From: Bradyrhizobium sp. 195
GTDB taxonomy: Bacteria > Pseudomonadota > Alphaproteobacteria > Rhizobiales > Xanthobacteraceae
Direction: 5' to 3'
Length of the DNA stretch: 64,000 nt
NCBI RefSeq assembly: GCF_023101665.1
Contig: NZ_CP082161.1
Span: forward strand, 4,464,001 to 4,528,000
The position numbers and the translations under genes were made by a program. The notes below the pieces were generated by a model. The model did no database searches and was not told the DNA's origin. It saw only the letters and a list, made by a program, of their open reading frames with translations. Below, piece after piece: positions 13,920-22,149 of this stretch; positions within the stretch are counted from its first letter, which is position 1, and every line of letters starts with the position of its first letter.

Positions 13920-14681
13920 ATGACCACCACGGCCCACATCGTGCTACGCGACGTCTCGGTCACATTTCCGGTGCTGTCGTTTCGCGATCGTTCGCTGCGC
14001 AGCCGGTTCGTCAGCGCCGTGACGCTGCGGCGGAAGGCGGCGGTCTCGCACCTCATCACGGCCTTGAACGAGGTCAGCCTCGACATCCGCGCCGGCGACC
14101 GCCTCGCCATCATCGGCGCCAATGGCGCCGGCAAGACCACGCTGCTGCGGGTTCTCGCCGGCATCTACCATCCGACGGCGGGGAGCATCGATGTGCTCGG
14201 CCGCTGCCTGTCGCTGTTCGATCTGTCGGCCGGCTTCGACGAGGAAGCAACCGGCTACGAGAACATCATGCGGCGCGGCCTCGTGATCGGCGCGCGGCGC
14301 GCCGAGATCGATGCGCGTCGCGCGGAGATCGCCGAGTTCAGCGAGCTCGGCGACCGCCTCGATCTGCCGCTACGCACCTATTCCAGCGGCATGATGCTGC
14401 GCCTGATCTTCGCGGTCGCAACCGCGGTCGAGGGCGAGATCGTGCTGCTCGACGAATGGATCGGCGTCGGCGACCAACAGTTCCGCAACAAGGCGCGGCA
14501 GCGGCTCGACGAGATCGTCGCCCGTGCCGGCATCCTGGTGCTCGCCTCGCACGACGTCGAACTGATCAAGAGCACCTGCAACCGGGCGATCCTGCTGGAG
14601 CAGGGGCGGATTACGGCGGCAGGCACGACCGAGGAGATTCTCGGCCGTTATCTCGGCGGGCCGGGCGGGGCGAAGGTCTAG
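13920..14681 (+). CDS. ABC transporter ATPase for surface polysaccharide export (Wzt-like, short form)
   Basis: 253-residue nucleotide-binding subunit that partners the Wzm-like permease just upstream. It has Walker A GANGAGKTT (66-74), a signature-type segment YSSGMMLR, Walker B EIVLLDEW, and a switch-region LASHDVELIK. At this length it lacks the C-terminal carbohydrate-binding domain of long Wzt proteins, so it belongs with the short KpsT/RfbB-type ATPases that do not read a chain-terminal modification. No glycosyltransferase genes are adjacent, so the exported glycan is unknown. Confidence 0.9.
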   Translation: MTTTAHIVLRDVSVTFPVLSFRDRSLRSRFVSAVTLRRKAAVSHLITALNEVSLDIRAGDRLAIIGANGAGKTTLLRVLAGIYHPTAGSIDVLGRCLSLFDLSAGFDEEATGYENIMRRGLVIGARRAEIDARRAEIAEFSELGDRLDLPLRTYSSGMMLRLIFAVATAVEGEIVLLDEWIGVGDQQFRNKARQRLDEIVARAGILVLASHDVELIKSTCNRAILLEQGRITAAGTTEEILGRYLGGPGGAKV

Positions 14682-14780
14682 CGCTTCAAGCCGGGCATCA
14701 AGCTGCTGAAACTCGTCGGGAAAGTGGGACGAAGGCGGTTGCCTAAACCCTGCATCCTCTATATTGCTCCGCCCTTACGG

Positions 14781-14854
14781 GGCCACGTGGCGGAGTGGTT
14801 ACGCAACGGTCTGCAAAACCGTGTACACCAGTTCAATTCTGGTCGTGGCCTCCA
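14781..14854 (+). tRNA. tRNA-Cys (GCA)
   Basis: A 74-nt cloverleaf. The acceptor stem GGCCACG (14781-14787) pairs with CGTGGCC (14844-14850), followed by discriminator T and an encoded CCA. The anticodon loop CTGCAAA gives anticodon GCA. The T arm carries the GTTCAATTC loop. The gene stands alone, 100 bp after the polysaccharide exporter. Confidence 0.96.
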
Positions 14855-15053
14855 TTACAAATCCCTGATCTTTCAGCAAAATTCGATCTCAGCGCAGGTT
14901 CCGCCGATCCTGTGCGGCCGTCCACCGAGGTGCGAGGGGGCTCGGTCACCGGATCTGCCCGGGACGTGCTGGAAACGCTGATTCACGCCCGCTGGCATAG
15001 AGTTCGCATCTGCGAAGTGATGCGACTTTCATCAACGAGCGCTGGAGCACCCC

Positions 15054-15200
15054 GTGGGCGATATCGTCCGATTTGTCCCGAAAACCGAGCTTGAGCGGGC
15101 TCGTCTCATCCGTGAGGCCCGCGCGATCTATGACAGCATCTTTCCATCGGCCGCATCCGAGCGGGCGACGCAGGATGGCGAGGATCGCGTCAAGACCTGA
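15054..15200 (+). CDS. small conserved-looking protein, 48 aa, unknown function
   Basis: A short frame starting at GTG with GGAG at 15044-15047, 6 nt upstream. The product starts MGDIVRFVPKTELERARLIR and reads as one charged helix followed by an acidic tail (DGEDRVKT). Similar short proteins are, to my recollection, frequent in Bradyrhizobium, but the role is unknown. Support comes from the ribosome site, the non-random composition and the absence of a competing frame. Confidence 0.55.
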   Translation: MGDIVRFVPKTELERARLIREARAIYDSIFPSAASERATQDGEDRVKT

Positions 15201-15272
15201 TCGTTGCCGGGCCGGGTTTGAGCTCTAGCAAAACGCCCGCGGGCGCGCTGCGATCAACGGCGAAAGCAGCCT

Positions 15273-15470
15273 TCAGCAGGCCGCGTACCAGCCGTCGGGA
15301 AACGGCAGGAGAGGCCAGGCGCCCTCATTGTCATTGGCCGCATTGGGCGTCGCGTCAAAACTCCGCGAGCGGAGCACGAACTCCTTCTCCGGCGCGGCAG
15401 CGAAATCTTCAATGACCATGGCGTCCCGGACGGCGTCCAGCAGCAAATTGAATTCGGCTTCGCTTCTCAT
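15273..15470 (-). CDS. small hypothetical protein, 65 aa
   Basis: Starts at the ATG at 15470 with GAGG 5 nt upstream on the minus strand. An ATG 15 bases further up (15485) is possible but less well placed. The product begins MRSEAEFNLLLDAVRDAMVI, acidic and helical, and ends in a Trp/Pro-rich stretch (EGAWPLLPFPDGWYAAC). No family recognised. It converges on the 48-aa gene with 72 bp between the stops. Confidence 0.5.
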   Translation of the reverse strand: MRSEAEFNLLLDAVRDAMVIEDFAAAPEKEFVLRSRSFDATPNAANDNEGAWPLLPFPDGWYAAC

Positions 15471-15628
15471 CGCACCCTCGCACAACGCGGATGGCGCAAT
15501 GTCGCAAAGCCGGTTTGTTACCCGATTGACCTGATCATTCGCATTTTAACGATCCGGCGATCGGGCCCCAATTGGTTAGCGATTTCTAAATCCCCTGGGG
15601 ATCCTAGGTTCCTCCGCTGCGCCGACAG

Positions 15629-15644
15629 TGTGAAAGAGATCACA
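15629..15644. promoter_or_regulatory. CRP/FNR-type palindrome TGTGA-N6-TCACA
   Basis: A perfect TGTGA-AAGAGA-TCACA, the classical CRP half-site arrangement, 82 bp before the start of the secreted small protein at 15726. It is a plausible operator for a CRP-family regulator acting on that gene. FixK/FNR sites would instead read TTGAT-N4-ATCAA, so this is not a FixK box. Function is inferred from sequence alone. Confidence 0.45.
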
Positions 15645-15725
15645 TCCTGAGCGGTTTATTTCTCCTACCCCTTCGCACACCGACCAATGCAGGCCGGGGC
15701 GGGCAGGGCAGACAGGAGATTGGTC

Positions 15726-15986
15726 ATGAAGGCGAGGTTCTTGCGGTTTGCGGGTGTGAAGAGCCGGGCGCGCCGCGCCTCGACGGTTGGGCTCTTCCTC
15801 ACATTGTTCGCCTCCGCCGCCCACGCGCAAGGGACGGCCGAACAGCGCCGGGCCTGCACGCCAGACGTCTACCGGCTCTGCGCCGGCGAAATCCCCAACG
15901 TCCGCGCCATCACGGCGTGCCTGCGGCGCAACCGCTCGAGCCTGAGCGAAGCCTGCCGCAGCGTGTTCGATCAGGCCGGCGGCTGA
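15726..15986 (+). CDS. small secreted Cys-containing protein, 86 aa
   Basis: Starts at the ATG at 15726; an in-frame ATG at 15687 would put extra residues before the signal peptide. Residues 1 to ~35 form a basic n-region and hydrophobic core ending in SAAHA, a good signal-peptidase site before QGTAEQ. The mature ~50-residue domain has four cysteines (RRACTPDVYRLC, ITACLRRN, LSEACRSVF) in a C-x8-C-x12-C-x11-C-like pattern that could form two disulfides in the periplasm. Such short proteins with this cysteine spacing recur in rhizobia. No function is known to me. Confidence 0.65.
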   Translation: MKARFLRFAGVKSRARRASTVGLFLTLFASAAHAQGTAEQRRACTPDVYRLCAGEIPNVRAITACLRRNRSSLSEACRSVFDQAGG

Positions 15987-16130
15987 ACGCAGCAGCCTGT
16001 GGTTTTGTGCGCAGCAAGTCGCCCGACCCGCTGAGGAATCCGCGAAATCGGCCCCTGTGGATATGCTGCGGACAGACTGTGGATCAGGGACATGGCGAAC
16101 TCGCAGATCGCGTAGCCCCGGGTGCAGTTC

Positions 16131-16220
16131 GTAGGGTGGATTAGCGAAGCGTAATCCACCTCTTCTCCTGCCACTGCGGCAGACGCGGTGGATGGCGCCT
16201 TCGGCTAATCCACCCTACGC
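16131..16220. repeat. imperfect palindromic repeat, GTAGGGTGGATTAGC family, copy 1
   Basis: About 90 bp whose ends, GTAGGGTGGATTAGCGAAGC and GGCTAATCCACCCTAC, are inverted copies of each other, able to form a long hairpin. The same family recurs at 36137-36228 and, with GGGCGGA in place of GGGTGGA, at 37098-37188. These are dispersed extragenic repeats of the kind abundant in Bradyrhizobium. Confidence 0.85.
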
Positions 16221-16573
16221 ATGAGGAGATGAAGCAAAGCTCGGGCGAGAACCTCAGTCTGGTGCCCCGATGCTGCGCAGCACGAATTGATGCGCTGCAA
16301 AGCTGGAGCCCATGTGGCAGCATGCGTGCGGCTTCCTGGGTCCCGGCTTTGCGAAGCAGCGTAAGAATGCTGCGGTGCACCCGGGACACGGGAGCCTGGT
16401 GAGGTCGATCCAACGGTCCCTGCATTTCGTCTCAAATTGCAACCCGCGCGTGCAAGAAGTCTTGATCGGCTGTGATCTAGGGGTGAACGTGCGGCTTGAA
16501 CGCGCGCCCTGACCACGGCGACCAATGGGAGAGTGCAAAAGGATCAGCGGAATGTGATCGCAGCTCCCCTTCC
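16221..16573. other. non-coding stretch before the PspA-type operon, repeat remnants
   Basis: No gene recognised. Bases 16226-16249 are an exact 24-base reverse-complement match to 35559-35582, so a longer dispersed repeat family is represented in both places. A further GC-rich segment around 16335-16400 (CTGGGTCCCGG opposite CCGGGACACGG) looks like another degenerate palindromic repeat. No -24/-12 promoter with correct spacing was found before the operon. Confidence 0.5.
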
Positions 16574-16596
16574 TAAAGCACCAAAATGGTGCTTTA
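16574..16596. promoter_or_regulatory. NtrC-type palindrome before the PspA-YqiJ-YqiK operon
   Basis: A perfect 10-bp inverted repeat with a 3-base centre: TAAAGCACCA-AAA-TGGTGCTTTA. Its core GCACCA-N3-TGGTGC equals the NtrC binding consensus (GCAC-N7-GTGC). It ends 10 bp before the ATG at 16606, a position more like an operator that blocks transcription than an activating upstream site. A second GCAC-N7-GTGC box lies before dusB-ntrBC. A short hairpin in the mRNA leader is the other possible reading. Confidence 0.5.
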
Positions 16597-16605
16597 GTGC
16601 TTTCC

Positions 16606-17760
16606 ATGAGCCAGTCGCCCCGAAACGCGCCGTCCGCGCTGCGTTACAGGCTTGCCCCTGATCCGGCCGCCAAGGCCGCGCTGGAGGCGACGTTCAGGGC
16701 ATATGACCGCATGATGGAGATCCTCGACGAGGTCGCGCGGAGCCACAATGTCGGTTCCAACGTCGTGCTGCTGCATGCCCACGCCTACGACCCGATCCGC
16801 AAACAGACCGCGCTGCCGTCGCGCCTGGTGACGCTGGGCCTGCGCGACCGCGCCGAATATCGCGCGGCGCAGGGCCGTCGTCTGCCGCTCGACGACAAGC
16901 TCGCCAAGATCAAGGGCCCGGCCACCATTTCGATTGCGACCGTGCAAGGGCGCTTCAGCGTGCCGTTCGACTATGCCGGCTATGCCGAGGGCTGGGGGCA
17001 GAGCGTGCCGGCGCGTCTGATCCGCACTGACGACGGTTTCGAAGTTCACTACGGCGTCACGCCGAACAGTCTGCCAGAGGAGGAGAACGCTATGGATACC
17101 ATCGCTGCCGCTCCCGAAAATTTCCTGTCCCGGGTCGGACGCCTGATCGCCGGGATCGCCTATGACGCGATCGAGCAGGCGGAAGGCAAAAACAAGCTTG
17201 GGGTGGTCGGACAGGCCATCCGCGAGATCGAGCGCGCCGAGAGCGAGGCGCGCGATGCGCTCGGCGCTGCGCGTGCCGAGGAATACCGCCTCAACGCGCG
17301 CCGCACCGAGATCGAGCGCGAGATGGTCGATCTCGCGCCCAAGATCGAAGGGGCGATCACCGACGGGCGCGACGACCTCGCCCGCGCCGGCATCGCGCGG
17401 CAGATGGATCTGGAGGCGCAGTTCGAGGTGCTGTCCCGCGCCATCGACGAGAACAACGAGAAGATCGAGCAATGCGTCACGTCGCTGCGTGCGGTGCTGT
17501 CGGCACTTCAGGACGCCGAGCAGCGCCGCGCCGATCTTGAAAAGAGTGAGGCGGCCGCAAGCCATCAGGCCTCGACGTCGCCCCGTAAACAGGGCGGCAG
17601 CTCTGCGGCGGCGAAGGCGTTGCGGGCGGGCAGGGCGGTGGCGCGAGCCACCGGCGTGCCGCCGGGCATCCCGTATTCGAGCGACATCGACGAACTCAGC
17701 ACGCTCCATCGCGACAAGGAAATTGCGGCGAGGCTGGCGCGGCTGAAGTCACGCTCCTGA
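16606..17760 (+). CDS. PspA/IM30-like protein with an N-terminal TnpB-like (wedge/REC, no nuclease) domain
   Basis: 384 residues from the ATG at 16606 (GTG at 16597 possible; neither has a good ribosome site). Residues ~11-155 resemble the N-terminal half of TnpB from IS200/IS605 elements: LRYRLAPDP plus an amphipathic helix, LPSRLVTLGLRD, then LPLDDKLAKIKG, ISIATVQGRFSVPF and a closing strand FEVHYGV, in TnpB order. There is no RuvC or zinc-ribbon part. Residues ~171-310 are a charged coiled coil of PspA type (FLSRVGRLIAGIAYDAIEQ, then long alternating helices). The tail is basic and ends in ARLARLKSRS. An AGGAGG at 17078-17083 lies 8 nt before an in-frame ATG at 17092 (Met163), so PspA alone may be translated too. 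It leads an operon with YqiJ- and YqiK-like genes, a known PspA/flotillin membrane-stress association. The PspA call is firm; the TnpB-like call is by eye. Confidence 0.72.
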   Translation: MSQSPRNAPSALRYRLAPDPAAKAALEATFRAYDRMMEILDEVARSHNVGSNVVLLHAHAYDPIRKQTALPSRLVTLGLRDRAEYRAAQGRRLPLDDKLAKIKGPATISIATVQGRFSVPFDYAGYAEGWGQSVPARLIRTDDGFEVHYGVTPNSLPEEENAMDTIAAAPENFLSRVGRLIAGIAYDAIEQAEGKNKLGVVGQAIREIERAESEARDALGAARAEEYRLNARRTEIEREMVDLAPKIEGAITDGRDDLARAGIARQMDLEAQFEVLSRAIDENNEKIEQCVTSLRAVLSALQDAEQRRADLEKSEAAASHQASTSPRKQGGSSAAAKALRAGRAVARATGVPPGIPYSSDIDELSTLHRDKEIAARLARLKSRS

Positions 17761-17770
17761 GTACCGCGTC

Positions 17771-18430
17771 ATGAGCGCTCTGCTCGAACACGTCATGTCA
17801 CCGGAGGTCAGGCCGTTCGCGATCGCGGCGGCCATGATCCTCATCGTCGGCTCGATCGAGGTGGTCTCGATGCTGGTCGGGGCTTCCCTGAGCGAAATGC
17901 TCGGCACCAACATCGACTTCGGCCATCCCAGCGACAATGGCGTGATCAACGCCATCTCCTGGATCAATGTCGGCGGCGTGCCGCTCTTGATCTTCCTGCT
18001 GCTCCTGCTCGGCGCGTTCTCCATCACCGGCTTTCTGATCCAGGACATCGCGCGGATGCTGGCCGGTCCCTTGCCGGCCTCGGTCGCCTCGGTCGGGGCC
18101 GTCGTGGTGTCGGTTCCGATGGTCCGTGCGGCCAGCAGGGCCATCGCGCGGGTCATTCCCAAGGATGAAAGCTACGCCGTCGGCCTCGGCGATCTCGTCG
18201 GCCGCATCGGCGAGGTCGTCATCGGCCCGCTCGACCAGGGACCGCCCGGCCGCGTCAGCGTCGCCGATATCCACGGCAACCGCCATTTCGTCTGGGCGGT
18301 CGCCGCGCCGTCGTCAGCACCCCTGCCGCAGGGAACCATGGTCCTACTGGTCGACCGCGACGGCACCCGCTTCGTCGCAGTGAAGGCCGACGATGAACTT
18401 AAGCCGTCCAAGCCACCTCTAAGCAGCTAG
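17771..18430 (+). CDS. YqiJ-like inner-membrane protein with OB-fold domain
   Basis: 219 residues. Two long hydrophobic segments (about residues 15-42 and 70-95) and a third near 100-115 lead into a soluble C-terminal β-rich part containing GDLVGRIGEVVIGPLDQG and RVSVADIHGNRHFVWA, like the OB-fold (NfeD-related) domain of YqiJ. Such proteins anchor flotillin-type SPFH proteins in membrane microdomains. It lies 10 bp after the PspA-like gene and 23 bp before the flotillin gene, so the three are surely co-transcribed. Confidence 0.82.
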   Translation: MSALLEHVMSPEVRPFAIAAAMILIVGSIEVVSMLVGASLSEMLGTNIDFGHPSDNGVINAISWINVGGVPLLIFLLLLLGAFSITGFLIQDIARMLAGPLPASVASVGAVVVSVPMVRAASRAIARVIPKDESYAVGLGDLVGRIGEVVIGPLDQGPPGRVSVADIHGNRHFVWAVAAPSSAPLPQGTMVLLVDRDGTRFVAVKADDELKPSKPPLSS

Positions 18431-18453
18431 CAGTTCATTCATTGGAGAAAGTC

Positions 18454-20148
18454 ATGTTCGACATCGCAGTCCCGGCCATGATCGGCGTCGCGCTGATCGT
18501 CGTCCTCGGGATCGTCTTCACCATCCTCTACAAGCGCGCCACGCGTGATGAAGCCTTCGTGCGCACCGGACTCGGTGGCAAGAAGGTCGTGCTCGACGGC
18601 GGCGCCATGATCCTGCCGATCTTCCACTCCTATGCCAGCGTCAATCTGAAGACGCTGCGGCTCACCGTGGAACGCAAGGAGCGGGAATCCCTGATCACCA
18701 GGGACCGCCTGCGCGTCGACATCGTGGCCGAGTTCTATGTGCGCGTCCGCCCCGACGATGAGAGTATCGCGCTTGCGAGCCAGACGCTGGGTGCACTGAC
18801 CAATGACGCCGAAGCCCTGCGCAACCAGGTCGAGGCGAAATTCGTCGACGGCCTGCGCTCGGTGGCGGCGACCATGAGCATCCTCGAGCTCCAGGAGAAG
18901 CGCTCGGACTTCGTCAAGCATGTGCAGGCGACAGTCGAGTCCGACGTCAAATCCAACGGCCTCGAGCTCGAATCCGTGTCGCTCACAAAGCTCGACCAGA
19001 CCGACGTCAAGTTCTTCAACCCGGAAAACTTCTTCGACGCCGAGGGCCTGACCCAATTGAAGACGGTCACCGAGACCCGGCGGCGCGACCGCAATGCCAT
19101 TGTGCGCGACAACGAGGTGGCGATTGCGCAAAAGGACCTCGAGGCGCGCCAGCAAACCCTCGGGATCGAACGGACCAAGAAGGAAGCGGAGCTCTCCCAG
19201 GAGCGCGACATCGCCAACAAGACCGCAAGCACCCGGGCCGAGGTCGCGACCGCCACGCAGACCGCGCGCCTCACCGAGGAAAATGCCCGCATCGACACCG
19301 ACCGAGCCGTCGCCGAGAAGGAGGCCGGCGCCAAGCAGGTCAAGGAAACCGCGGTGATCGAGTCGGATCTGGCGATCAACAAGCGCAAGACCGACGCTCA
19401 GCGCGAGATCCAGATCGCCACACAGGAAAACGAGATCCAGATCGCCGCCAAGAGCAAGCAGACCTCGGAAGCCGTCACCGAAGCCAAGGCCGCCGAAGCG
19501 CTCGCAGTCTCTGCGGAGGAAAAGGTCGTCACCGCGCGTGCGGTCGAGGTCGCCGATCGTGCCCGTCTGACCCAGGTGCTGGCCGCGCGCACCGAGGCCG
19601 AACGCAAATCGACCGAGCTGATCGTTGCGGCGGAGGCCGAGAAGAAGGCTTCGCTCGATCGCGCCGAGGCCGTCAAGACGCTGGCCACCGCCGAAGCCGA
19701 GTCCAACAAGATCAAGGCCGTCGGCGTCCGCAACATCGGTGAGGCCGAGGCCGCCGTCATCACCATGAAGAACGAGGCGCAGAACAAGCTCGGCAGCAAC
19801 GTCATCGACTTCGAGATCGCCAAGAAGCGGATCGAGACGATGCCGTCGGCGCTGGCCGAGATGGTCAAGCCTATCGCCAACCTCAAGGACGTCCGCATCC
19901 TGCACACCGGCGGCGCATTCGGCGGCAACGGCGCCGGCGGAGGCAATGTCGGCTTTGGCGAAGGACTCGCCGGCGAGCTGCTCAAGGTGCACGCGCTGCG
20001 TCCGATGATCGACGAGATCCTGCGCCAGGGCGGCTTTGCGCCGGGCGATGATCCCGTGCAGGCGCTGGTCGGCGCCGTGACCGGGAAGAGCAATGGCGCT
20101 GCCGTGCCTGCGCCGGCGCCGGAAAAGACAAACGCCGCCGATCTATGA
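18454..20148 (+). CDS. flotillin-like SPFH protein (YqiK family)
   Basis: 564 residues from the ATG at 18454, chosen because GGAG stands 7 nt upstream; a TTG at 18442 is also in frame. One N-terminal membrane segment (about 5-27) is followed by an SPFH/band-7 domain beginning RTGLGGKKVVLDGGAMILPI, then a long Ala/Glu/Lys coiled coil (about 210-430) typical of flotillins. The C-terminal part holds a Gly-rich patch (GGAFGGNGAGGGNVGFGEG). Flotillins scaffold membrane microdomains and, with PspA-type partners, are tied to envelope stress. Last gene of the three-gene operon. Confidence 0.9.
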   Translation: MFDIAVPAMIGVALIVVLGIVFTILYKRATRDEAFVRTGLGGKKVVLDGGAMILPIFHSYASVNLKTLRLTVERKERESLITRDRLRVDIVAEFYVRVRPDDESIALASQTLGALTNDAEALRNQVEAKFVDGLRSVAATMSILELQEKRSDFVKHVQATVESDVKSNGLELESVSLTKLDQTDVKFFNPENFFDAEGLTQLKTVTETRRRDRNAIVRDNEVAIAQKDLEARQQTLGIERTKKEAELSQERDIANKTASTRAEVATATQTARLTEENARIDTDRAVAEKEAGAKQVKETAVIESDLAINKRKTDAQREIQIATQENEIQIAAKSKQTSEAVTEAKAAEALAVSAEEKVVTARAVEVADRARLTQVLAARTEAERKSTELIVAAEAEKKASLDRAEAVKTLATAEAESNKIKAVGVRNIGEAEAAVITMKNEAQNKLGSNVIDFEIAKKRIETMPSALAEMVKPIANLKDVRILHTGGAFGGNGAGGGNVGFGEGLAGELLKVHALRPMIDEILRQGGFAPGDDPVQALVGAVTGKSNGAAVPAPAPEKTNAADL

Positions 20149-20355
20149 ATGCCCGTTCATTGCTGCGGAGAATTCGAATCGATAAACAGGCTCGGCGCGT
20201 CTCGCGTCGCGCAACGTCCCGGAGTGCAGATCGATCGTGTCCTGAACCTTTCGATCGCGCTCCGGACGTGTCTCGAGGCAACGCCTTTTGTTGCCGCGGC
20301 GCCTGCGCCGATCGACGCCAGGCGCTGAGGCCTGTTTCGATCGGAGGATTTTCAC

Positions 20356-20724
20356 ATGAAGTATTTTCTGTCTGGATTGATCGCGATCGGTCTTTCGATC
20401 GCCGCCATGCCGTCGTTCGCAGCCGACGCCCGCAACGTTACCATCGTCAACGAGACCGGCTATGCCATCAAATTCCTGGGCTTCAACGCGCCGGATGATG
20501 GTCTGGACGAGTGGGACAATGAGCTCGACAAGGTGCTTCAGAACCAGGCCAGCACCTATGTCGAGTTCGACGAGGACGACGAGGGCTGCGTCTGGAATAT
20601 CCGCGTCGACTGGCAGAGCTACGACCAGGCGGTGCTCTGGAAGAACGTCAATCTCTGCAAGATGACCGCGCTTCGGCTGCGCTACGACCCCGGCACCAAG
20701 ACCACCTCGTTCCTCGCGGAATAA
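20356..20724 (+). CDS. small exported protein of unknown function, 122 aa
   Basis: Starts at an ATG with GGAGG 8 nt upstream. Residues 1-22 form a clear signal peptide (MKYFLSGLIAIGLSIAAMPS, then FAADA with cleavage after AFA). The mature ~100 residues are acidic and β-rich (NVTIVNETGYAIKFLGFN, YVEFDEDDEGC) with two cysteines (EGCVWNI and NLCKMT) that could bond. The 207 bp separating it from the flotillin gene contain no gene. I recognise it only as a recurrent rhizobial periplasmic protein without assigned role. Confidence 0.72.
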   Translation: MKYFLSGLIAIGLSIAAMPSFAADARNVTIVNETGYAIKFLGFNAPDDGLDEWDNELDKVLQNQASTYVEFDEDDEGCVWNIRVDWQSYDQAVLWKNVNLCKMTALRLRYDPGTKTTSFLAE

Positions 20725-20858
20725 CGATTGGCCCGTATGGCCGGAGGAGGGGCCGCTCGGCCCTTCCTCAGGCACGTTGCGGATGATGACGAATTCGTCT
20801 TTGCAAGCGCAAGCGGCTTTGTTATACGCAGCCGCGCGCGAACGACTGGTTCGCCTTT

Positions 20859-20933
20859 TCCTCGGTAGCTCAGCGGTAGAGCATCCGACTGTTAATCGGA
20901 TGGTCGCTGGTTCGAATCCAGCCCGGGGAGCCA
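20859..20933 (+). tRNA. tRNA-Asn (GTT)
   Basis: A 75-nt cloverleaf. The acceptor TCCTCGG (20859-20865) pairs with CCGGGGA (20923-20929) with one G-T pair, followed by G and an encoded CCA. The anticodon stem-loop CCGACTGTTAATCGG gives anticodon GTT, and the T arm has GGTTCGAATCC. No integrase or attachment-site duplication is visible beside it. Confidence 0.96.
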
Positions 20934-21146
20934 AATTCTACCGCAAATTCAATGACTTGTGATCGCGCCCTCAGGCGGCGCACGACCTTGTTGCATTGAA
21001 TTCTGATCAGCGTGTTCGGGGTCCCTGGCTGGAATCGCCTTCAAGCAGATGTGTGCATGGGCCCCGTCGCGCCATGCGGGCGGCCCCAAATCGACTCAAT
21101 TGAAATCGAGCTTCGCGACTGCCGGATTTTTACGGAGCTGATTCCC

Positions 21147-21320
21147 ATGCCAGACATCCAGGTCGACCACATGGCCCCCTCGATTCTGCCGGCCGACATT
21201 CCCGAGCTCAGCGACGACGAATGTCTCGCCTGTCTGGCGCGTGCGGTCGAGACACCCGAGTCAGCGCGGCTGGACGAGGTCGCGGCTCTGATCGGCCGCC
21301 TCGCCGTGGCGATCGAATAA
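21147..21320 (+). CDS. small acidic protein, 57 aa, unknown function
   Basis: The frame is longer upstream (from 21012), but the ATG at 21147 has GGAG 9 nt before it and begins the only coherent part: MPDIQVDHMAPSILPADIPE, then an acidic helix with a Cys pair (DDECLACLARAVE) and a hydrophobic end (AALIGRLAVAIE). No family recognised. It lies between tRNA-Asn and pcm. Confidence 0.45.
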   Translation: MPDIQVDHMAPSILPADIPELSDDECLACLARAVETPESARLDEVAALIGRLAVAIE

Positions 21321-21486
21321 TCCGTTCCACCCCCTGACGCGGTAAGATGCGGACGCCTTAGCCCCAAAAGCCTTGGCACAAAAGCCTTGGCCCCACAGGG
21401 CTAACGGCCGTTGCGTTTTGGCCGGCCATGTTCCAAAGATGCCGCCAACTTTGGTTCGCGGCATCGCCGCATTGCAGGGTCCGCAA

Positions 21487-22149
21487 ATGTCCGGTTTTTC
21501 GACCGCGCGCCTCAAAATGGTCGATGGCCAGGTGCGCACCAGTGACGTCACCGACCGTCGTGTTCTCGATGCCATGCTTACGGTTCCGCGCGAGGCCTTT
21601 GTGCCGGCAGGCCGGCAGGCGCTGGCCTATCTCGATCTCGACCTCGACGTGAGCGAGGGCGCAGACAAGCGCTTCCTGATCAAGCCGCAGCTGACCGGCA
21701 AGCTGCTTCAGGCCGCCGAAATCGGGGAGGGTGACAACGTGCTGGTGGTCGGCTGCGCCACGGGATACCTCGCGGCGCTGACAGCCAAGCTGGCGCGCCA
21801 GGTCACCGCAACGGAATGCGATTCGGCCCTGGCCGCGAAGGCCAAGGATGCCGTCGCTGCCCTGGGGCTTGCCAATGTGACCTGCAAGGCCGCAGCCTGC
21901 ACCGAAGGCGATCCTTCCGCTGCTCCCTATGACGTGATTATCCTCAATGGCGCCGCCGAGGTGACGCCGGAGGCGCTGCTCGGGCAGCTGAAGGAGGGCG
22001 GGCGTCTAGTGGGGGTTTCGGCCGAATCCAGGCCGCCCCGGGCCATGATCGTGACACATACCCATGGTGAATTCGGTCATCGGACCCTGTTTGACGCCGC
22101 CGCTCCGGTCCTTCCCGGCCTGGCGCGGACTGCCGCCTTCGTCTTCTGA
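21487..22149 (+). CDS. pcm: protein-L-isoaspartate O-methyltransferase family protein
   Basis: 220 residues from the ATG at 21487; the open frame to 21373 reads improbable sequence. SAM-dependent methyltransferase of the PCMT family, which repairs isoaspartyl residues in damaged proteins. It has the N-terminal region RLKMVDGQVRTSDVTDRRVLDAM and the SAM-binding motif VLVVGCATGYLAALTAKLA followed by TATECD. The catalytic-loop signature of E. coli Pcm is not obvious, so this is the shorter alphaproteobacterial type often found before tolC, and repair activity is less certain than the fold. Confidence 0.83.
   Translation: MSGFSTARLKMVDGQVRTSDVTDRRVLDAMLTVPREAFVPAGRQALAYLDLDLDVSEGADKRFLIKPQLTGKLLQAAEIGEGDNVLVVGCATGYLAALTAKLARQVTATECDSALAAKAKDAVAALGLANVTCKAAACTEGDPSAAPYDVIILNGAAEVTPEALLGQLKEGGRLVGVSAESRPPRAMIVTHTHGEFGHRTLFDAAAPVLPGLARTAAFVF

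Follow-up and report, generated by a model that had tools for sequence, protein, structure and literature searches.

A TnpB-derived recognition lobe joined to PspA in alphaproteobacterial flotillin operons, and its proposed role as an RNA-independent autoregulator

What does the front half of a TnpB-type RNA-guided nuclease do in a protein that has no nuclease? The question is raised by an open reading frame (ORF) on the plus strand of a 64,000-nt stretch of the genome of Bradyrhizobium sp. 195 (contig NZ_CP082161.1; this whole stretch is called the window). The ORF begins with an ATG at position 16606, encodes 384 residues with no internal stop and ends with its stop codon at 17760. It joins an N-terminal domain of ~160 residues (the N-domain) to a PspA coiled coil and lies upstream of YqiJ- and YqiK-like genes. 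A sequence-only reading of this DNA had taken the N-domain for the WED/REC module of TnpB, captured by a membrane-stress protein with loss of the RuvC nuclease and able, perhaps, to grip an RNA. We found that the N-domain is homologous to the recognition lobe (WED plus REC) of TnpB, and we think it fairly probable that the fusion protein acts as a TnpB-derived, RNA-independent autoregulator of its membrane-stress operon.

Homology and fold of the N-domain

A family profile made from 12 N-domain rows matched all 14 TnpB-type proteins of a test set (11 full-length, 3 N-terminal halves; all reached via one bridging protein and hence not a random sample) at 16.6-46.2 bits, against a top score of 9.3 bits among reversed and shuffled copies (2,814 in all, 1,609 of them reported). 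Across 349 genomes from the phylum, an untargeted search likewise had a TnpB as its top match beyond the family (L142, E 0.0048). Among the 50 structural matches listed for the AlphaFold model of the N-domain, 49 were PDB entries of TnpB, Cas12, TranC or Fanzor. The WED-REC lobe was recognizable both by sequence and by fold, and every motif that the sequence-only reading had named was found, in the order stated, in the ORF translation. Its supposition that RuvC had been lost also held: RuvC had no match in Pfam or NCBIfam, neither a nuclease domain with the D-E-D triad nor a zinc finger was found, and the chain ran on into PspA_IM30.

That the N-domain resembles TnpB by chance, without common descent, is hardly credible given these scores and folds, even though some searches lean that way. 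The N-domain profile found nothing among PDB sequences at E<=10, Pfam HTH_OrfB_IS605 matched only 2 of the 12 family members and those below threshold (best E 0.16), and the best Foldseek E-value of the N-domain model was 1.5e-3. The empty PDB sequence search was considered as a refutation of kinship with TnpB and rejected, since TnpB did come up when the profile was compared directly, and again when folds were compared. Pfam and NCBIfam gave residues 1-162 no name above threshold, and the best PDB matches of the single N-domain sequence were to sticholysin (E 0.067). PHROGs yielded just weak, unrelated matches for 2 of 5 proteins, phage records held no relative (best E 5), and PF12323 had no match in the window's own genome at E<=0.001.

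In ISDra2 TnpB, the duplex of the transposon-associated motif (TAM) lies in the WED/REC cleft, where it is contacted by Y52, S56, K76, F77, Q80, T123 and N124, and the omegaRNA scaffold is seated on WED plus RuvC (PMC10097598). The half retained in the fusion therefore corresponds to the TAM reader. Its parts are as follows.

16606..17091, plus strand: TnpB-derived N-domain, residues 1-162 (profile, controls, AlphaFold model, PDB matches)
16633..16653, plus strand: WED strand 1, residues 10-16 (DSSP of the AlphaFold model)
16663..16866, plus strand: REC insertion, helices within residues 20-87 (DSSP of the AlphaFold model)
16786..16788, plus strand: Tyr61, aligned by MAFFT with the TAM-contacting Tyr52 of ISDra2 TnpB
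16822..16833, plus strand: Arg73-Thr76 of the third REC helix, at the places of the TAM contacts Phe77 (residue 73, in a gap-free alignment of the helix) and Gln80 (residue 76, by MAFFT)
16879..17058, plus strand: WED barrel strands, residues 92-151 (DSSP of the AlphaFold model)
17092..17760, plus strand: PspA/IM30 part, 222 residues if begun at its own ATG (PF04012, E 3.7e-12)

Position 61 was Tyr in all 25 family rows and all 14 TnpB-type rows; positions 106 and 107, two further TAM-contact positions, were not conserved. The net charge of the N-domain ranged from -4 to +4 (median +1, 18 family rows). That of the TnpB-type rows had a median of +8 and lay between +2 and +17 in 13 of 14, with one halophile at -9, so that the two ranges overlap. 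The lower charge speaks weakly against a grip on RNA.

PspA_IM30 (PF04012) covered residues 174-332 of the fusion (E 1.4e-11; 44.8 bits for the whole chain, cut-off 33.9) and scored 46.8 bits with the PspA part by itself; the fusion did not reach the PspA equivalog of NCBIfam (36.3 vs 242.95 bits required). The AlphaFold model of the full-length protein had a mean predicted local distance difference test (pLDDT) score of 71.9, falling below 50 at residues 152-194, and a predicted template modeling (pTM) score of 0.40, and because of this low confidence the mutual arrangement of N-domain and PspA in it is not reliable.

The operon, its upstream dyad and residue 73

Pfam matches of the three genes bear out the PspA-YqiJ-YqiK operon proposed earlier, with the YqiJ and SPFH/flotillin genes directly downstream of the fusion.

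17771..18430, plus strand: YqiJ-like membrane protein with an OB-fold (YqiJ_N/YqiJ_OB; PF21001, E 3.8e-19, and PF07290, E 4.2e-10)
18454..20148, plus strand: YqiK-like flotillin/SPFH protein (Flot/Band_7; PF15975, E 3.3e-30, and PF01145, E 1.3e-15)

The N-domain was encoded in 17 of 41 genomes of relatives (the window's own included), 21 of 296 of the family (one, L036, being a weak match with a stop, not counted as an N-domain family member), and 12 of 249 of the order (E 6e-38 or better). For the class the count was 6 genomes of 385, and for the phylum 8 of 349 (E 1.3e-33 or better). A scan of contigs of GTDB species gave 200 stretches encoding it, 80 of which were kept. It was also carried by 11 plasmid records from Rhizobium, Agrobacterium, Shinella and Bosea, 10 of them annotated as PspA/IM30, and in the four plasmid regions fetched (L150-L153) the N-domain gene was followed by 'OB-fold' and then 'flotillin' genes, the same order as in the window. 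Within the order, YqiJ_N was present in 12/12 genomes with the N-domain vs 6/237 without it, which indicates that N-domain and operon travel together. The N-domain is coding, since its protein sequence is conserved across genera and families, with identities among the aligned rows reaching as low as 32%. In several alphaproteobacterial families (root-nodule bacteria and relatives), matching operons have kept the recognition lobe alone.

Stand-alone TnpB N-domain genes lacking RuvC were also seen on Thermobacillus and Paenibacillus plasmids (L149:2950-3480, 176 residues; L154:2489-3031, 180 residues); the two are 53.5% identical over 88%, the Paenibacillus gene adjoins a gene of the replication-relaxation family, and the pair may perhaps represent an independent domestication. 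In the window, the operon is flanked by two tRNA genes (14781-14851 and 20859-20930), a possible island site, and a second inverted repeat, GTAGGGTGGATTAG...CTAATCCACCCTAC, was noticed by eye at about 16130-16219 in the upstream intergenic stretch.

Three short elements accompany the fusion gene.

16575..16595, no strand assigned: dyad AAAGCAC-CAAAATG-GTGCTTT, a putative operator (sole exact copy in the genome; a dyad in 108/108 distinct homologs)
16597..16603, plus strand: extra half-site, GTGCTTT, that follows the dyad in sequences of the window's Bradyrhizobium group
17078..17085, plus strand: internal Shine-Dalgarno (SD) sequence AGGAGGAG before the ATG at 17092 (SD-like motif in homologs)

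An inverted repeat, usually AAAGCAC-N7-GTGCTTT, stood 10-12 nt before the chosen start in every one of the 108 distinct N-domain genes first collected, with arms pairing at 7/7 positions in 86 genes, 6/7 in 21 and 5/7 in one. At least 6/7 pairs were found in 0.9% of shuffled upstream windows vs 24/25 observed. The exact pattern occurs once in the 9.1-Mb genome, where matches with two mismatches fell at ten other places, no more than for a control pattern. Within the order, it was found in 5/12 genomes with the N-domain vs 2/237 others, and the plus-strand ORFs listed around the site in those two showed no PspA. TTGAAA-like and TATAAT-like boxes were seen by eye 17-18 nt apart in most rows, with 5-6 nt separating the TATAAT-like box from the start. 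At the -35 position, TTG was present in 20 of the 23 rows and missing from three, the window included. An SD-like motif was present at none of the 108 N-domain gene starts. These sequences suggest a sigma70-like promoter of the leaderless type, with the putative operator in its spacer.

A first comparison took in 23 rows (<90% identity); GTG and GTC dyads were told apart by six columns, of which only 73 (Arg/Gln) and 76 (Thr/Ser or Val) were conserved. Two more distant N-domain genes were found afterwards, L213 and L214, both with Gln73 and Thr76; L213 has its dyad at the usual place, with A at base 3 of both arms, and L214 does not have one there. Once these were added, column 76 no longer separated the classes, and over 25 rows and 160 columns residue 73 was the sole conserved column that did so (Arg 20/20, Gln 5/5), joined by the variable column 17. 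All 104 distinct Arg73 genes have G at base 3 in at least one arm, and the 4 Gln73 genes of the 108-gene set all have C there in both. We propose on this correlation that residue 73 would set the specificity, Arg for G and Gln for C or A. MAFFT aligned residue 76 directly with Q80 of ISDra2 TnpB and left F77 in an insert; if helix 72-80 is aligned free of gaps, residue 73 probably occupies the TAM-contact position of Phe77. TnpB-type rows carry Gln (10/14) or Asn (4/14) at 73, so that Gln73 looks ancestral. The best tree places two changes there, one on the split between L209 and the Gln73 rows related to it and the other, after L123, among the Hyphomicrobiales; forcing the Gln rows together was rejected (p 3e-7 and 3e-6), and a Gln grade needs no clade. 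One further row, L128:1492-1974, is the sole one with the dyad AAAACAC/GTGTTTT and the sole one of 25 with Thr, not His, at residue 57, a possible second specificity position from a single case.

At the boundary between the two parts, a Met was present in 107/107 fused genes. An SD-like motif of at least 4 nt lay 3-12 nt before it in 105/107, and one of at least 5 nt in 100/107 (19/22 non-redundant), against a background in the same genes of 4.1% of 7,743 other codons and 3/98 other Met codons. AGGA(G) was mostly kept although the encoded residues vary (EE, QE, KE, KD). From this sequence pattern, the cell probably also makes a separate PspA that starts at 17092. At L209 (G879), the N-domain has a gene to itself, which encodes 159 residues including Arg73, starts with GTG and has a 7/7 GTGCTTT dyad; yqiJ and yqiK follow immediately, with no PspA in between. 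Because L209 keeps N-domain and dyad without an adjacent PspA, it is the operon, not PspA, to which the N-domain is tied. The idea of capture by a membrane-stress protein is qualified by the boundary Met with its SD-like motif and by this operon. Hyphomicrobiales operons lacking the N-domain (L183, L184, L186) have a separate gene of ~180 residues directly before pspA. A ribbon-helix-helix assignment made for it by eye found no confirmation in Pfam, and a PDB profile search gave mainly coiled-coil matches; the assignment was not used.

A proposed autoregulator and its alternatives

We propose that the WED plus REC lobe of a TnpB, after loss of RuvC, zinc finger and guide RNA, may have been kept as a sequence-specific binder of double-stranded DNA. 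The N-domain would read the dyad set between the two boxes (-35 and -10) of the promoter that drives its gene, thereby repressing the pspA-yqiJ-yqiK operon. The transcript would be leaderless, its scarce full-length product linking repressor to PspA, and the internal start would supply PspA alone. Under membrane stress, PspA would assemble on the membrane and either pull the N-domain off the operator or alter its oligomer state, inducing the operon. We lean slightly toward seeing here a new family of transcription factors, in which a TAM-reading lobe free of RNA and nuclease would serve as a protein-only, dyad-reading repressor in frame with the sensor PspA, its specificity following residue 73.

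Several points weigh against this proposal. The script that counted the dyads gave credit for a dyad when selecting the start codon, and the window's own boxes are weak (TTCCTA at -35, TAGTGC at -10). L214, with Gln73, has an imperfect 5/7 dyad, located by eye further upstream, with C and A at base 3, and 14 of the 104 Arg73 genes have A there in one arm. The match of residue 73 to Phe77 depends on where the gap is placed, the switches at 73 are read from a tree with long, partly unsupported branches, and one or two independent pairs, one of them on well-supported branches, make a sign test impossible. A different regulator, encoded elsewhere, could bind the dyad. The stress-release step is suggested by analogy. 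In the bacA operon of Pseudomonas aeruginosa, unlike the operon studied here, a sigma54 site has been proposed (PMC10948618).

Structural reuse, with WED/REC serving as an adaptor or oligomerization domain of PspA that has no nucleic-acid role and another regulator on the dyad, would agree with a net charge below that of TnpB and with the loss of conservation at positions 106 and 107. It would leave aside the invariant Tyr61 and a residue 73 that tracks a dyad base, the L209 operon keeps the N-domain without an adjacent PspA, and the three operon genes, by their Pfam names, hold no other regulator; we regard this explanation as unlikely. Regulation at the RNA level seems more doubtful still. 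In that case the dyad would be transcribed as a hairpin before the start codon (stem of 7 bp, loop of 7 nt) and be bound by the N-domain, and paired changes in both arms would fit RNA as well as DNA; however, in most rows the dyad sits between the TTGAAA- and TATAAT-like boxes, the latter 5-6 nt from the start, and so it is probably not transcribed.

Very unlikely, in our judgment, is an RNA-guided repressor of the TldR type, in which a guide RNA, still bound by the domain, would direct it to a site beside a TAM. Descent from an RNA-guided protein favors it, as do some omegaRNA contacts made by WED in TnpB (PMC10097598), but the RNA seat lacks its other half, RuvC, the charge is lower, and the conserved upstream feature is a dyad. 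Rfam found two tRNAs only above gathering scores at 14500-21500, guide-target matches not having been searched for. The guide-RNA grip of the sequence-only reading is likewise not supported: in TnpB the seat includes RuvC, which the fusion lacks, and both the dyad and the way residue 73 varies with it speak for DNA. With these alternatives weighed, we retain DNA-binding autoregulation as the preferred reading.

The fusion shares with TnpB of IS200/IS605 elements (ISDra2 TnpB, PDB 8H1J/8EX9/8BF8) the WED-REC-WED order, the fold, the equivalent of Tyr52 and a profile match over the domain. It differs in lacking RuvC and zinc finger, in its lower charge, in the PspA that follows and in that no transposon or omegaRNA was seen. 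TldR proteins, TnpB-like nuclease-dead repressors, are guided by gRNA and have a RuvC inactivated by mutation (PMC13418256). They are likewise domesticated TnpBs with a proposed transcriptional role, but they keep a RuvC-derived domain and a guide, whereas in the fusion that domain is gone, as the sequence-only reading had stressed, and no guide was seen. The fusion is therefore neither a TnpB nor a TldR.

The slot directly before pspA is occupied in other Proteobacteria by YjfI, of the CesT/Tir type (PMC11237479), and in P. aeruginosa the gene before a PspA homolog is bacA, whose loss raises the operon partner proteins 6.1- to 13.5-fold, so that BacA appears to act as a brake on the operon it belongs to (PMC10948618). 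In other bacteria, then, this position serves as a control slot. BacA and YjfI (DUF2170, CesT/Tir fold) share this slot with the N-domain, in some Proteobacteria as part of flotillin/YqiJ-type operons (PMC10948618, PMC11237479); they differ in having an unrelated fold, in being separate genes and in the proposed sigma54 site. PspA-NlpC/P60 and PspA-PspAA are likewise rare PspA fusions, with different domains, and fusions and repeats together make up <2% of PspA homologs in a survey of the phage shock protein (PSP) system, in the main text of which the words TnpB, OrfB, Cas12, transposon and transposase are absent (PMC11237479). Among the papers listed by the literature searches, which mostly exclude subscription journals, none reported a TnpB-PspA fusion. 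An acid-induced PspA of Rhizobium tropici (PMC5936775) was considered as expression evidence and dropped: its plasmid record NC_020062.1, which the collection searched includes, was matched neither by the N-domain nor by the PspA part of a family member.

All descendants of TnpB known to us, namely Cas12, Fanzor and TldR, retain RuvC or a remnant of it together with a guide RNA. If RNA-free DNA binding by the N-domain is true, the reading of a protospacer-adjacent motif (PAM) or TAM could act as a stand-alone transcription-factor activity. The family would then offer a naturally occurring range of changed TAM-like specificities linked to one residue, and would couple PspA-type membrane stress directly to promoter control.
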